Origin: Thelephora terrestris
Lineage: Eukaryota > Basidiomycota > Agaricomycetes > Thelephorales > Thelephoraceae
Direction of reading: 5' to 3'
DNA length: 64,000 nucleotides
Assembly (NCBI GenBank): GCA_015956445.1
Contig: WIUZ02000004.1
Location: 496,001 to 560,000 of the forward strand
Shown in pieces: positions 29,989 to 43,186 of the stretch; the stretch's first letter is position 1, and every line of letters begins with the position of its first letter. The notes beneath the pieces were generated by a model. The model was not told the DNA's origin. It saw only the letters and a list, made by a program, of their open reading frames with translations, and ran no database searches. Both the position numbers and the translations under genes were made by a program.

Positions 29989-31595
29989 TCATCGGTTTTG
30001 GATGTCTAGCTTCTCTAACGCTCTATCCAACAGCTTGTGCATCAACTTCTCCCATTCGTCACGGCTCCCCTCACCCACCCCCTTGACAAACTCCTTAGCT
30101 TCACCCGTCCGTTCCATCTCTTCCCATTCAGCCCTCAACAAGGAGGTGTTCAAATACATCTTCTCGTGCCAATTAGGGGTGATATACTTCTTCAACGTCT
30201 CCTCGTCGTCCCCATATATGAGAGTATAGAATTCGTCCCTATACTGAAACTGTTCATGGGGTTCAAAAGTAAAGTAACGTTTGGCAACTTGAAGTTCGTC
30301 TCCCGCGAGCCTATCCTTCAGCATCTTGTACCGAGAGACAAGTAGATCGACTTCGGCATCTACGTTTAACAGTTCTGGGGACGTCCAAAGTTTCACCATC
30401 AGGTGCGCTTGCGCCTCGACGAAAGGGAGGGGTGAGACGCGGAAGAGCAGTCCTGGGAAGGCTAATGAGGTAGGCGGGTACTTGTCTGTCCCAGGGAATA
30501 GGTGTTTAATGAGAGGAAAGATGTGATATGTAGAGTTGTATAGCTTGTCGTTTGCCACCGGAGGTATTGGGGTTGGAGGTAGGGATGTTTGAATCAGGGG
30601 GCCAGAGAGGAAAGGGAGGACCATCTTGTAACCGGTAGCCAGTATGCACGAATCTACCTCGTCTTCTGTCCCATCTTCGTATCGCACCTTTCCTCTTCCC
30701 TGCTTATTGAAGGGAAGCAACTCGACCAATCGGCTTCGGTACTGAACCTTGCTGCTGCGAGGCGGGTCGAATGGGAGCTCCGAGACGGAGAGGTAGACAA
30801 CGGTGGTGGAATGCAAACCGGCGATCTCTGTCGAGATGTCACGCCCACTGTAACCTCCACCAACGACGAGTACAGCACTTCCATGATCGGCAGGTCGTCT
30901 GTACCACGCAGAATGGGTAGCTTTGCCCGCTTCTAACCAATCGTCCAATCCGGGTACGTTGGGGAACCGAGGGAACCGAAACCGACCGTTCGCCACGACT
31001 ACCTTGTGGAACCTTACCCACCCCCTCCCGCATCCGGGCCCAGATGTTCTGATCCTCCAGAAGGAGTTGGTCTCGTCTCGTTCCAGATGCTCAACCGTCG
31101 TGTTGAGTCGGATATTTGTTGAGAGATCGAAATGAGCGACGAACGAGTCAAGATAGTCTTCGACAACTTTTGCCCGTGGGTAGACCGGGGTCGAGGGCGG
31201 AAATGGAAACGCCGCATAGGACATTATGGGGTGGGGTAGGTTCGTTGTCAACGAATCATAGGTCGGGGTGAGTGGTGGATCTGCTGTGTCCGGGGGGGCC
31301 GAGTACCTGTGTTCGAGGTGTGGTCACTTTCGCCGGCTAAGGCGGTCAATGAAGACAGAGGGTCTGCGCACCAGATGCCACCAGTTTTATCTCTAGCCTC
31401 AAACAAGGTTGGTCTCCATAGGCCGGACTTGTACTGAGGTGTTCCCATGATTACCTGGAGGGCTGACAACCCAGAGACGCCTCCGCCGATTATGCAGATA
31501 TCCATGGTGTGCTCGGCAACTGTTGGACCATCTGGGGACTGTGTTTTGCCACCATCTGTTGCAGGGTGCGGCAGAGACGAGCCTAGGTCATCCAA
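29989..31595 (-). CDS. flavin-containing monooxygenase
   Basis: Two exons (31595-31328, 31283-29989) give 520 residues. The FAD-binding Rossmann motif is ICIIGGGVSGLSAL near residue 35, and the NADPH site is VLVVGGGYSGRD. The FMO-type segments LTTNLPHPIMSYAAFPFP and CILATGYK are also present. FMOs oxygenate N or S atoms or act as Baeyer-Villiger-like enzymes using FAD, NADPH and O2. The 44-nt intron keeps phase, but it spans a run of seven C, and an eighth C there would give an uninterrupted frame instead. A later Met at 31505 is an alternative start. It converges with tlg1, 147 bp apart. Possible role in secondary metabolism; see findings. Confidence 0.85.
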
Positions 31596-35479: not shown

Positions 35480-36817
35480 GAGTTGGGTGTGTGCTGCGGG
35501 TTATTGAGTGCGGGGTTCTCTTTGTGTAGATAGATAAATTTCTGACTTCCTATCCGCGTCCAGATTTTACCGGGGAGGCTAAGAGGATATTGTAGACGCA
35601 ACACACGCTCAGCGAAGGGGAAGACGGAGAGGAAGGAGAAGATCAGTGGCCTGCGCTACAAACCAGCGATGTGGTCGACGGCGAGCACGTCACGGAATAT
35701 GATTTCACCTTGACGCCGAGCACAGCACTTTCTCGTATTCGTATTTTGCACCTATCCCCACATTTTCTTGAATTTGGGCTCAAAGTTCTGGGGGGGAGGG
35801 GGACAGAAATCGCCCTGTATTCGTGGCTCACAATCCTGGACGGAACGGAGGTGGGGTCGTACTCGTGTGCCTCACGCTCAGAATAAAGTGAGTTATAAGG
35901 ATCAGATTCAAATCCTGCGCAAGCTCGAGATTCCAGGATTGAACGGTATTTATGATTAAAGCTTCGCTCATGCGGTCTCGCGCGATGCGAGTGGGGCAAT
36001 TGAGAAACTCCCTTCTTCCGAACCTGAGGCTGAATTTCTGCCTGGACGACGCTTTCTTCGGTTTTGGCTTGGTCACACAAAAATCAAGGGCGAAAGGGTC
36101 CGCAGTGGTCATTGTAACTTTGAAGACTGGCGAGTGTGCCAGGCAGCAGAAATGTTTCATGATGAGAGGCTGAGCGTGAAGGCGTCAAAGGTTGTTGATC
36201 TCTTGTTCCTGGCGGGCGATGATGTTCAAAAGCCACTGCTCTTGGTCAGACTTCTGGGATCATTATCATCCCGGTTACCATCTGCGCAAACTCCGAAACG
36301 CCGACGCTGGCGTTGAGAAAGACTGATGGTCACTCCGGTTGCCGATGCCCGACTGATCCAACACACAACCCCGCTCCAGTCCCTCTGTGGCAGGAAACTG
36401 GGGAAGAGAGGAGACTCGTGAGTGGCCTCCTTTTTACTCCCTTGCCAGGCGAGATTGATGATACGGACTAGCTGAAACAACAATGTTGCTGGAAATCAGC
36501 GACACAGTCTGTGCGGAATGGTATCCGCTCGCATCGCCTCTCCATCATCAGGAGTGTTTGATTCACTTCCTCGTGTCCGACGAGCGCCCCCGCTTGCCAG
36601 ACGATATATATACCACCCATCAATCATCCTGCGCTCCTCAGGACCGTTTCGGTTTCTCCCCACCCACCACTTCGTTCTCGAAAGCTCAAGGGCCTGGTTG
36701 CCTTTTTTCCTTTTCTTCCTCCACTTTTTTTCTTACTTTTTTTACAATCGCCGGTCGATTGTGTTCACCTACTTCCCATTAACGTCCTTATTTTAACGAC
36801 CCACGAATCATTTCGTC
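35480..36817. other. 1.3 kb intergenic, possible small minus-strand gene
   Basis: Holds the promoter of the VHS-GAT gene and, on the right, that of the NRPS-like gene. On the minus strand at about 36191-36262 a short coding-like exon tail reads LLNIIARQEQEINNL before a stop, but its upstream exons are not resolved. Open frames on both strands at 35640-36160 show no known motif. Confidence 0.35.
36602..36790 (+). promoter_or_regulatory. TATA element and CT-rich leader of the NRPS-like gene
   Basis: A TATA-type sequence (ATATATATA) lies near 36604, about 210 bp before the start codon. It is followed by long pyrimidine runs (36655-36790). Strongly expressed basidiomycete genes often have this combination. 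Confidence 0.6.
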
Positions 36818-39800
36818 ATGACCAACAACACCGTCACCCCCACTGAGTGCCTCCTTCGAGTTGCCCGGACCCGCCCATTCGCTCCTGCCGTCCGTCATGG
36901 TTCCTATACCTGGTCTTACGCTGCCCTCTGGGCTCGTGTTCGAGAGCTTGCCAAGCATATCGAGAAACTTGATCAGTCACAAGGTCCAATCGGCCTTCAT
37001 ATGGGGTCAGTATTCTCACATTTCTGTCCCATCACACGTTTTGCTGATCTCGCGTTTTATAGACTTGAGATAGATTATGTTGCTGCTGCCCACGCTGTCT
37101 GGCTTACTGGTCGTACTACCGTCGTTCTCAGCCCCAAATGGTCTCAGGATATCATGGCCGCGATTTTGGAGCGGACCCAGGTCAACCTCGTCCTCTATGG
37201 GAACACAAAGCCTGGCCACATATCCGTTCAGACCGTCTGCACCACAGAGTTGATTGATCCTAAACCTCCCATCGTTTGCCCTCCTCCCGCTTCCTACGAG
37301 GCCGTCCAGAAGGTTCCAGTGATCTGCAGTATCACCCCCACATCTGGAAGCACCGGTGTTCCCAAGAGTATCGTTTACCCCATGAAGCGAGCTTTGTCCA
37401 CTCTCGATCAGGAATCTTCCACTCTTTTCAAGCCTAAGGATGGCCAATGGCTTCGTGGTGGAACAGTGAGTTTTCTCCTATCTTTTCTATTTTTTCCACC
37501 TAACCTTGCCCTTCAGACTTTCCTCCGCCCACTCTTCGAGATCCGTCGCTTCATGTTCAACCAAACCACTCTATACTTGGACGGAGCCCTCTCCGTCCCC
37601 GACCAATGCGCTTCCCTCTGCGCTGAGCTCGAGAACAAGGCAAATACCCAGCTTTTGCGAACCCACTTCACCCCCTCTGTCTTCCGTGCCTTCCTCGACT
37701 ACGTCAAGATGAAATTCGGCCCCGAACACTCCTTTGATCGTCTCTATTGGATGGTCATCGGAGGAGAGTCCCTCAGCGTTGAGGACCTCAAGCTGGCCAA
37801 GAAGATCTTCCCCAAGGCCACGCTCGCTTGCAATTACGCCTGCTCTGAGGTTGGCTTTGCTGGTGTCTGCCAGATGCTCGTCCGTCCCGAGGATCCGGTT
37901 CCCGAGTTTGTCAACTTCGATGCCACCCAGGGTTGTCAGGATCTCGTTATCCTCGACGACAACATGAACATCGTCCCCAAGTCCGCAGGCTCTTCCGGCA
38001 TCATTGGTATTATCACCGACTCCTCCGCTACTCATTACGTGGGCAACGCTGAGGCTTCCAAGCACATGTTTCGTCCCTGGGACGGTGACAATATTCTCCT
38101 ATATACCGACGACATCGGCAAGGTCACGGCTGATGGCCGCATCGTTATCAACGGTCGTCGCTCCAGGAATGTCAAGGTCAACGGTATCTTCATCGATATG
38201 GACGAGTTGGAACGTGCTATGAACAACTCCTTTGCTGGCTCTGTCGTCGCTTACAAACTCATTCAGTCCAAACAGAGGATCGTCCTCTTCTGGACTGGTG
38301 AGTCGACCGAGATCAAGGTCTTCAAGACCGCTCGTGAGGCCCTGAAGAACAAGTTGGGTGAGAACATTTCCATGGCCATCTCCTCCACCCGCTACATCGA
38401 AGAGATGCCATACAACGCCTCCTACAAGATCGACATCGCCCAGCTTCAGAAGATCGCAGACAGTGATATCCCTACCCCAATCGAGGTTGTTGAGGCTCCT
38501 GCCCCTGCCCCTGCCCCCGTCGAGACCTCCGTCTCCCGTGCCGACGAAATTGCTGCCGAGATCGCCAAGGAAGTTGCCCGTCTCGCCAAGGCTGCCTCCG
38601 CTCCCACCGATGTCCCCCTCATGTTGGCTGGACTCAACTCGATCACCGCTATCCAGCTCTACTTCTGGCTTCAGGAGAAGTTCGATTATGAGGAAGACAT
38701 GAGCAGGCTCTTCGAAGAAGAGGTTACTGCTGCCGTCGTTGCTCGCGAGATCGTCGGCGAGGAACTTGTGGATGCTGTTCAGGGTATGGAAATCCCCACC
38801 AAATCTTCCGTCAACCGCCGCGTAGAGATCGCCATGGACATCGCCCACGAAGTCGCTCGCCTCGCCAAGACCACCTCCCCCGTCCCCACCGATGTTCCTC
38901 TCATGCTTGCCGGTCTCAACTCGATCACTGTCGTCCAGCTCCACTTCTGGCTTCAGTCTTCCTTCGATTACGACGAGGACATGAGCAAGCTCTTCGAAGA
39001 GGATTGCACCGCCGAGTTATTGGCTGCCCTTATTGTCGAAGATTCGACCGTCACTCCCTCTGAGGCCGACTCCGATGCCACCAAGATCGAGGAAATCTCT
39101 GAGGTTGCTGTCATTGCTGAGGCCATCGCCAAGGAGGCTGGGAAACTCGCCAGGGTTACCAAGGCCATCCCGACAGACGTGCCTCTGATGTTGGCAGGCT
39201 TGAACTCCATTACCGTCATCCAGCTACACTTCTGGTTGCAATCCGAGTACGACTACGAAGAGGAAATGAGCAGGCTCTTTGAAGAGGACGTCACCGCTGA
39301 GGTTGTTGCTCGTGACATCTGTGGCGTTACTGACAAGGCCAACGCCGCCCATGTACCCCCTCCTGTCCCTGTTGCTGCTGCCCCCGTCGAGCCCGAGACC
39401 GTTAAGGAGAATCCCGCCCCTGCTAAGGCTCGCACTACGCGTCGCCCGACCCCATTGAACTTGGCATCTTCGAACTTCACAACGACCAATCCGATCCCTG
39501 CCGCCATGAAGACTGGCGGTCTCAGGACCGGTGGCTTCAAGGTAACTGGTCTTCCGACTGGGTGAGTTTTTCCGCGTACTCCACCGGTAGTGTTCCCCAA
39601 TATTTATATTAACCTTGGTTTTTGTAGTATGGTCAACGGTTTCCTCGCTCTCACGATTTTGAGTCCTCACAGCGCCAACTCGATGACTTTCCAAGGCAAC
39701 GGCACCCCCGCCCTGAGCATCACCCATGCTTCGTTGGACATGTTGGCCGATTCGCACACGCCTTTCGCTCCCGTCTCCGCCTGGGCCTCCGAACCGTTTA

Positions 39801-39823
39801 CGCCCAAGGTGCTTTGCGTATGA
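36818..39823 (+). CDS. NRPS-like enzyme: adenylation domain plus three tandem carrier domains
   Basis: Four exons (36818-37005, 37063-37465, 37517-39561, 39628-39823) give 943 residues. The first two introns are 57 and 51 nt, multiples of three, so the frame also reads through them. The adenylation domain fills residues 1-545: A3 core TPTSGSTGVPKS, A5 NYACSEVG, A7/A8 YTDDIGKVTADGRIVINGRR and NVKVNG, A10 YNASYKIDI with the catalytic-type Lys. Three carrier domains follow, each with PLMLAGLNSIT; the phosphopantetheine-site Ser are residues 572, 666 and 761. There is no condensation, reductase or thioesterase domain. A Thr/Gly-rich tail of about 100 residues ends the protein. Codons are strongly C-ending, unlike neighbours, which suggests high expression. 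Substrate unknown. Confidence 0.88.
38524..39330 (+). repeat. three tandem carrier-domain repeats
   Basis: Three copies of about 80-residue carrier domains, spaced 94-95 residues between active Ser. Each reads roughly IAxEVxRLAK, PTDVPLMLAGLNSI, QLxFWLQ, FDYxEDMSxLFEE. The high likeness implies recent duplication or homogenisation. Confidence 0.85.
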
Positions 39824-40628: not shown

Positions 40629-43186
40629 TCAATCGACAAGGATGATTTCCGCATCACCGTCCTCAGGTCCATCGAGGATTATCAGCCCATCCTCTTCCAA
40701 CTGACGTTTGCTTCTTGGGGTAGAGAGGTCGGGTCCGTCCCCGTTCGGACTGGTTTTTAACCGCTTGGCGGGCTGTTCCTCCATGATGCTATCATCATCT
40801 GGTGCTCGGCGTTTCGTCGCCTTCGTGGGCGAGGAAAGTGGCGTCATCGGAAGTTTCATTTTGACTTTCTTCTGCGGCTGCGGAAGCGGATGTGGGAGTA
40901 CGAAAGGCGGTGAATCTTCCGGATGGTTTGGCCTGTTACGATGAATAGGGAGTGAAGTATCGACAAACGGTGTTGATTAGCTGATTTGATGCGTTGGGAG
41001 CGAGGGGAAATGAGGAAGGACCTACGGGAGAACGCCAATGCCGATCGATATCGTCTCCAGCTCACCGTCCTCGTCAACAATGTTGAGGAACTTGCCTCGC
41101 GTGACATTCAGATCTTCCAACGTCCGTTCAAGGTTGTCGTCCCAATCTGGATCAGCGAGGATCCGCTTCTCCTCATAAACACTGACCTCCCTCTCATCTT
41201 CACCAAGGATTCCCTGAACGACGTCACCTAACGTTGTTCTGCTCGGATCACATAGCACTTCCGTGAAAGTGTCACGACAAACTGCACACGAAGGGTTGGG
41301 GGGAGGTAGTGTGGCGGAGCTGAGAGGGTTAGTCCGCTTGTATTGGATCATGACCGTCTTCATCGTCCCGTGGGCCTTCCGAAGCAGCTGGAGGGCCTGA
41401 AGGACGATGAGACCGGAAACGATCGCATTGGTGGTAGCAATTGCAGGGATGATGTTTCCGGCCATTTCTAACACCATCATCAGGGGTGTGATCGATTGGA
41501 TTTTGATCTCAAGCAGCTCTTACCCTTCACCTCCCAACGGGTTTTTCCATCGATGTTGTATGCAGCAGATCGGAGGTTGGAAGCAGCGGTCACAAAATCT
41601 AAGGTATCATCATCATCTTTGTCGAATGAAATGGTTTCTTCCCCCGCTTGCAAACGAGCTGCAAGACGCCTTGTACTGTGGGATGGTCAGCATCTAATCT
41701 CGCACGTCTTTGGTTCACAAGCCCGTACCTTGCAATAAATAACTCTAAATTTTCTTCTAAAGTCAAAGTTTTCTGGTCCTTGAGTCCTACGGCGGCGGCG
41801 CTCGCCGGTGTATCATGTCCATTCTGGTTGTTTACCGGGGTGGCCGTGCCATTCGGTGTGACCTTATTGGTGGGCTTTTCACGGAGAATGAAAGTCCCGT
41901 CTTTGATACCTTCAAACGATAGCGGCACTGGGGGGGCTCGCGTTTTCCACATGTCTGACATAGAAAGGAGATTCAATACGTCCGAGTGGAATACCTGGCA
42001 ATGGCCCATAAGCACGGGGCCAACTATCTTTGAGTAACCACGAACCTTTTCGAATGCGAGCTTCGCAGCCTCCTCGTCGTTGCTCGGCGATCTGAGGGCG
42101 GTACGCACACGCTTGAATGCCTGCGCCTCCTTACGTAGAGTAGCGATTTCCTGGGCTATCGAAGGGCGATGGGCAATGGAAATACGAGTAACTCATCAAC
42201 GACTGACCATTCTCGCCTTGGTGCAAAGCATCATTTAATTCAACTTCTCCCGAGGCGTCCTCATCTTCACCAAATAACTGTCTGTTCGAAATCAGTGAGC
42301 TGAGCAGACTGATCGGCGCTTAACCCTACGATAAGAGATAGCTTTTGGCCCAAACAATGCAATGAATTGGTTGTGAAGGCGTCGAGCGAATAGTACAGAC
42401 TGGGAAAGTCTTGGGAGTCTGCTTGGTAACACAATCGAAACACTCCGTCCGGTCCTGTGGTCGTTATCAACAGGCGCCACAGGTGAGGGTCAGGAAACAC
42501 AAACCTTGAGAATCGGTTGGACCTGACCAAGGTATCCTGCCGTACCAGACTCGACTAATGGAACATTAGCAGCCATACACATCTTGTTCACGTGCCTCCG
42601 TGCGTCTACACGTAAGGCGGTTATTAGGGAGGAATGGGATGTGCTCACGACAACACGTACCGAGATTGTCCAGAGCATTAAGAACGATGTCAAATGTCCT
42701 AAACCATGACACGTCGAACTGAGGGTCTTTGATGTTGGCGTGGATTGGGTCAATTCTGACGTGGGGATTGAATGCAGATGCAGTGTTCGCCGCAACCTTT
42801 CAGTATCGAGATCCTTGAGCGTTGTGTGACCCATAGCTATCAAATGAGCCATACCATGGCTTTACTTTGCTTTACATCCTTCTTGCGAAAGAGGAATTGG
42901 CGGTTGAGGTTCGACAGGTCGATAGTGTCAAGGTCCAAAAGGGTGATATCCCCGAACCCAGTCATTACCACGTTCTTTACTAGTAAACCAGTCAGTCACA
43001 TCGACATTCATAGGAGCGACGAACACCATCCGCGGGGATATCGTTGCGGTGATGATCATGTGAAAGGGGATACTTACATAGTTCACAACCAATCCCGCCA
43101 GCCCCGACGAGCAGAACGCGCGTGTTGGAGAGCCTCGAGTAGAGCTCCGGGCCAAGTATCGCCGCAGCGTGAGTTCCACGAGCCAT
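40629..43186 (-). CDS. uba2: SUMO-activating enzyme subunit Uba2
   Basis: Eleven exons give 647 residues: 43186-43078, 42979-42855, 42796-42661, 42605-42505, 42454-42330, 42281-42208, 42155-42046, 41994-41729, 41675-41524, 41467-41026, 40932-40629. ATP site: [13 protein letters not shown] and [16 protein letters not shown]. Zinc Cys pairs are CFDC and CAVC. The catalytic Cys is Cys177 in [10 protein letters not shown], followed by [19 protein letters not shown]. Uba2 pairs with Aos1 to activate SUMO by a thioester on this Cys. The ubiquitin-fold and a Lys/Arg-rich C-terminal tail with probable nuclear signals ([17 protein letters not shown]) complete the protein. All phases agree. Confidence 0.95.

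Follow-up and report, generated by a model that had tools for sequence, protein, structure and literature searches.

An NRPS-like protein of Thelephora terrestris with one adenylation domain, three carriers and no recognised release domain, and a related carrier fused to an ABC transporter

Several described systems resemble parts of the protein considered here. Fungal NRPS-like enzymes of the A-T-R and A-T-TE types, which include carboxylate reductases and quinone-forming enzymes, likewise join a single adenylation (A) domain and a carrier (T) in one protein. In the DltA/DltC system, an A domain charges a carrier with D-alanine for hand-over in trans. The bacterial protein PA1221 (PDB 4dg9/4dg8) has an A domain and then a carrier, and lacks C, R and TE domains. 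In astellolide biosynthesis, AstA (A-T-C) loads an aryl acid, which is not an amino acid, onto its carrier, and its own C domain forms an ester (PMC5024094). PUFA synthases carry several similar carriers in a row and the number of ACPs raises their output; no A domain is among the domains listed there (PMC5067506). An Aspergillus PKS-NRPS hybrid is given as ...C-A-T-T-R, with two T directly after A, in a paper whose table lets T stand for both thiolation and thioesterase; this hybrid is large and has C and R (PMC4073137).

The gene described here lies in a window of 64,000 nucleotides (contig WIUZ02000004.1, positions 496,001 to 560,000), which is the whole stretch of DNA that was analysed. 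On its plus strand, at 36818-39823, four exons and three short predicted introns give a 943-aa protein with the order A-T-T-T. We propose that the gene yields an abundant loading protein, which charges its own carriers with an acid other than an alpha-amino acid for hand-over in trans, and that the best candidate partner is a carrier-fused transporter encoded on another contig of the same genome (C4); the probability of this reading is roughly 0.6. The A domain would activate one carboxylic acid with ATP, and the acid would be placed as a thioester on the arms of the three carriers (T1-T3). Because there is no release or joining domain, the acyl group would then be passed to another protein. 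Among the genes found in the fungus's own genome, the most specific candidate for receiving it is the C4 transporter, of the ABCC type, which bears a fourth carrier of the T1-T3 family and appears to have no working A domain. The features of the window gene are as follows.

36605..36612, plus strand, putative TATA-like element about 206 bases 5' of the start codon (read from sequence)
36818..37005, plus strand, exon 1, start of the A domain (open frame, splice consensus)
37006..37062, plus strand, predicted intron 1, 57 nt, GTCAGT...TATAG, without in-frame stop (low pLDDT if read through)
37063..37465, plus strand, exon 2, A domain with P-loop TSGSTGVPK (open frame, splice consensus, Pfam)
37466..37516, plus strand, predicted intron 2, 51 nt, GTGAGT...TTCAG, without in-frame stop (low pLDDT if read through)
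37517..39561, plus strand, exon 3, remainder of the A domain, T1, T2, T3 and start of the tail (open frame, Pfam)
39562..39627, plus strand, predicted intron 3, 66 nt, GTGAGT...TGTAG, early stop if retained (splice consensus)
39628..39823, plus strand, exon 4, end of the tail and stop codon (open frame, splice consensus)
36857..38470, plus strand, A domain, about residues 14-515 (Pfam, motifs, model and fold match)
38426..38428, plus strand, A10 Lys501 of the A domain (alignment with bacterial A domains)
38525..38764, plus strand, carrier T1, Ser572 at 38639-38641 (Pfam, identity, modelled)
38807..39046, plus strand, carrier T2, Ser666 at 38921-38923 (Pfam, identity; poorly modelled)
39092..39331, plus strand, carrier T3, Ser761 at 39206-39208 (Pfam, identity, own model)
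39332..39561, plus strand, C-terminal tail up to intron 3, unmatched in Pfam and modelled with low confidence (Pfam, model)

The gene model is a prediction based on splice consensus and open frames, and it stops at 39823, the same 3' end as in the initial annotation. Intron donors were chosen by eye as those closest to the usual consensus. For intron 1, two alternative choices (one GT-AG, one GC-AG) also keep the frame open, and for intron 2 three other donors share its acceptor. The lengths of introns 1 and 2 are divisible by three and neither contains an in-frame stop, so unspliced messages would stay in frame there. A pyrimidine-rich stretch can be read 5' of the ATG.

The A-T-T-T layout with intact carrier serines, proposed when the gene was first annotated, is recovered by Pfam in the spliced 943-aa protein. 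There is a single PF00501 A domain (residues 14-362, E 4.7e-26) and three PF00550 carriers, each of which alone exceeds the cut-off of 20.8 bits (T1, T2 and T3 at 25.5, 22.7 and 23.4), and the serine is present in all three. A further carrier model, PF23297, is also above its cut-off (27.7 vs 27 bits), and nothing else beyond A and carriers passes the cut-offs. The accompanying claim that nothing here condenses, reduces or releases a product also holds: C, R and TE domains have no Pfam match in the 943-aa protein, in the tail part, or in the scanned ORFs directly before and after the gene, and KS and AT have none in the protein. The tail of about 140 residues has no Pfam match, and its modelled part has a pLDDT below 50. 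Whereas fungal A-T-R and A-T-TE enzymes end in R or TE, neither is found here and there are three T; the C domain that AstA owns is lacking, as are the KS, AT and reductive domains of PUFA synthases. Among the literature matches listed, mainly open-access, neither a fungal A-T-T-T NRPS protein without release domain nor a carrier joined to an ABC transporter was found, one search for the latter listing 15 of its 293 matches, and "A-T-T-T" and "NRPS" as whole words share no paper found in the open-access literature. Since subscription papers fell mostly outside this search, such absence is weak evidence.

The three carriers are 59-67% identical to one another over about 80 residues. Their pairwise dN values are 0.27, 0.29 and 0.37, with dS values of 0.90, 1.87 and 2.0 that are near saturation, and dN/dS is about 0.30, 0.15 and 0.19. 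They look like old duplicates retained under constraint and not like a recent accident. Tandem Repeats Finder reports a 6-base repeat in the DNA but none that corresponds to the carriers, which fits old duplications. Modelled alone by AlphaFold2 (with T1, T2 and seven bacterial carriers), T3 reaches a pLDDT of 91.1, and Foldseek places ACP and PCP structures at the head of the matches for this model, with an E value of 0.013 at best and no match under 0.001. The four-helix carrier fold is seen in T3's own model and, for T1, in the full model described below; T2 and T3 are poor in that read-through model, where the bacterial rows scarcely cover them. The genome has three PPTase-like matches.

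The P-loop TSGSTGxPK, Glu308, Asp396, Arg411, Lys417 and Lys501 of the A domain all match residues conserved in 62 bacterial A domains, and the ANL motif set is kept: the P-loop, A5 Glu, A7 Asp, A8 Arg and A10 Lys. At the position of GrsA Asp235, where Asp binds the amino group of an alpha-amino acid, Asp is found in 56 of the 62 bacterial domains and Leu200 in the window protein. The specificity residues, which the initial annotation had proposed to read, are L200, R201, F204, H247, V277, G279, N303, F311, A312 and K501, on the assumption that the GrsA pocket positions apply and as placed by aligning sequences that share about 17-24% identity. With Leu200 in place of the Asp, the substrate is probably not an ordinary alpha-amino acid. 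One may speculate that R201, adjoining the lost Asp position, faces a second acid group of the substrate.

The closest solved structure by sequence is 4gr5 (E 1.9e-11). The 915-aa read-through frame, modelled by AlphaFold2 with 62 bacterial A-domain proteins, has a mean pLDDT of 67.6 and a pTM of 0.67. Most of the A domain and of T1 lies at pLDDT 70-95, with dips, and the stretches that introns 1 and 2 contribute score low, as retained introns should. The best PDB fold matches by Foldseek are NRPS proteins (5u89, E 2.0e-31; 4dg9; EntF 5t3d), and the model resembles A-PCP structures, including EntF in its thioester-forming state. PA1221 4dg9 is the second-best match with a target TM of 0.80, some A-only chains reaching 0.82; PA1221 is bacterial, 17% identical and has one carrier, while the window protein has three carriers and a tail. 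DltA-type chains likewise stand near the top in both the sequence and the fold comparison, but DltA/DltC uses a separate single carrier and an amino acid, in contrast to three fused carriers here. Among viral structures, Foldseek gives four matches at E ≤0.001, three of them AMP-binding or acyl-CoA synthetase and one nameless. In bacterial and archaeal genomes, a single-protein scan gave eight pattern matches, none of them confirmed as a close relative, and an alignment scan kept 80 of 165 loci at only 21-27% identity, so that no close bacterial donor is seen. The alignment and the fold used 62 of these 80 loci. The other 18, whose matches were shorter or less convenient, were removed manually (L070, L073, L087, L090, L095, L101, L103, L107, L112, L114, L116, L119, L121, L123, L126, L127, L134 and L136).

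In the fungus's own genome (40.6 Mb, 60 contigs), T1-T3 have one relative at E ≤0.001, on contig C4:

C4:1308151-1313274 (L044:352-5475), ABCC-type transporter with an N-terminal A C-lobe and one carrier (sequence, Pfam)

A back-search with this gene returns, below E 0.9, only the gene itself and the window gene in the same genome. The start of its ORF resembles the C-lobe of the window A domain (27% identity, E 5.3e-10), the next best match of this lobe being at 6.7e-5 among 65 others compared. The carrier that follows has its Ser intact and is 45-52% identical to T1-T3, and it continues in the same frame into the transporter. No in-frame ATG lies between this carrier and the first pump motif, so the pump should be translated with the carrier, unless an upstream exon skips the carrier. 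Pfam finds PF00664 (ABC_membrane) in two ORFs of the gene and PF00005 (ABC_tran) in three, and the closest solved relatives of the transporter are ABCC proteins. The C4 carrier has no Pfam PF00550 match even at E 10, which counts against a working carrier; its homology rests on the identity to T1-T3 and on a carrier tree in which T1-T3 and the C4 carrier form one side of a branch with support 99/84. This tree has 39 rows (the four carriers of this family, ten other carriers of the same genome and the first 25 motif-bearing bacterial carriers); it leaves out L041, and L035 and L042 are flagged as long rows. The placement of the C4 carrier inside T1-T3 (99/88, about 80 residues) is only a lead. 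In fungi, the attachment of an adenylating domain to a membrane protein has been seen before, but the membrane family differs and an A domain is present there, whereas the C4 gene has an A C-lobe and T only.

The initial annotation had also read a high-expression signature in the codons, and this agrees with the comparison to other ORFs. C-ending and A-ending codons make up 0.45 and 0.08 of the window gene, and 0.44 and 0.08 of an EF2-like ORF; the A-ending fraction of 0.079 compares with 0.074 and 0.079 in EF1A-like ORFs and 0.081 in EF2. The carrier-pump gene on C4 gives 0.068, 0.087 and 0.093, and all these values fall among the lowest of the comparison set. The comparison set consists of 83 ORFs of at least 230 aa from the same genome, with antisense and false ORFs included, and is not a clean gene set; the names EF1A, EF2 and Lys2 were assigned by reading translations. 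Neighbouring ORFs of the window lie at 0.14-0.26, the multi-module NRPS on C60 at 0.17-0.20 and the Lys2-like genes at about 0.19-0.21. A low value is not unique, as shown by L142 (0.104), L025 (0.108) and L137 (0.121). Because of this elongation-factor-like bias, both the window gene and the C4 carrier-pump gene look highly expressed, and high expression is uncommon for secondary metabolism genes.

The C4 pump is the sole specific link to the T1-T3 carrier family found in the genome, and its location on a different contig from the window gene counts against a partnership. A carrier-dependent export, in which the A-T-T-T protein would charge its own carriers and that of the C4 pump, and the ABCC pump would expel the acyl group or some product built on it, is possible, if doubtful.

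It is rather unlikely that the A domain has lost catalysis, leaving a carrier scaffold or a regulator that another enzyme loads or that acts through binding only. In favour of such a loss are the strongly conserved positions of the 62 bacterial domains, of which 43 of 82 are kept and 39 deviate (three of the 82 touch predicted-intron residues and some fall within the carrier). At the hinge position A8, Ser413 replaces an Asp found in 61 of the 62, and Asp395 stands where all 62 have Gly; from these two nearly invariant positions, the activity of the A domain may be weak or lost. The C4 sister gene, in turn, has lost the A core, and its C-lobe is without the A10 Lys. However, the P-loop, Glu, Asp, Arg and A10 Lys usually taken as catalytic are all kept in the window protein, and the strong codon bias and the intact long frame point to a working protein.

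In known systems, acyl groups leave only slowly and unspecifically when no dedicated domain releases them. This argues against a stand-alone producer whose acid leaves by hydrolysis or by attack of a small amine or thiol, and whose three carriers merely raise output; the sister carrier on the transporter would also be left unexplained. The output gained from tandem carriers in PUFA synthases speaks for such a producer (PMC5067506), which we hold to be clearly unlikely. The initial annotation had allowed for both outcomes, several copies of one acid loaded for a partner in trans or a raised output as in PUFA synthases, and either would be plausible.

No biosynthetic cluster is seen around the window gene, as judged from 20 of the 42 stop-to-stop ORFs of at least 170 aa in the window and some more. 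Eleven of these 20 ORFs have no Pfam match; the genes matched in all the ORFs scanned are FMO, PSMD3-like, F-box, VHS/GAT, O-fucosyltransferase-like, ARG5,6-like (with NAT and semialdehyde dehydrogenase domains) and UBA2-like. The FMO-like monooxygenase gene (window 29992-31323, minus strand) lies 5.5 kb upstream, with VHS and GAT ORFs between, and shows no sign of belonging with the A-T-T-T gene.

Elsewhere in the genome, the 11 condensation matches belong to PKS-NRPS hybrids (C5, C6), the C60 NRPS, Lys2-like genes (C23, C34) and apparent broken copies (C45), and no free-standing condensation domain is seen among them. A candidate of that kind on C45 was discarded, as the copy L152 looks like a broken part of a PKS-NRPS hybrid. 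The two apparent hybrids, at C5:369.2-380.3 kb and C6:395.6-406.7 kb, have KS upstream, then a carrier-like end, C, A, T and TE; KS and C of each presumably lie in one gene. There are apparent partial hybrid copies at C5:384.9 kb and, with equal match scores, at C45:2.086 and 2.129 Mb. Lys2-like genes occur at two closely similar loci, C23:1536-1540 kb and C34:1958-1962 kb, where C-like, T and R domains are matched; the matches listed include none for A. At C2:816.9-821.5 kb, a KS match is followed by two tandem carrier matches, probably a PKS with doubled carriers.

Transfer of the acyl group to one of the codon-biased hybrids on C5 or C6 is very unlikely. They have a C domain and a TE, and share the codon bias (A-ending 0.080-0.127), but this bias alone is no proof of one pathway and there is no linkage. 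Since they have their own A domain and seemingly their own upstream carrier, an outside loader is not needed. Downstream of the window gene, on the opposite strand, lies a gene with Pfam UAE_UbL and ThiF, which we take to be UBA2-like. It is hardly credible that the predicted structure is mistaken and that a further exon supplies a release domain by splicing: both the 66-nt intron near the 3' end and the short exon after it are predictions, and the roughly 1.2 kb from the stop to the nearest recognised UBA2-like ORF (which ends at 41022) is in principle space for a small domain, but the two plus-strand ORFs there (99 and 117 aa), where the missed exon considered in the initial annotation was looked for, have no Pfam match at E ≤1.

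The preferred reading remains an abundant loading protein whose acyl group would be handed over in trans, with the carrier-fused transporter as the best candidate partner. Since the codon bias suggests an abundant protein, deletion of the window gene may give a visible chemical effect. Should the two genes cooperate, carriers would gain a role in export, and if carrier-dependent export is true, thioester carriers would here serve transport and not synthesis.
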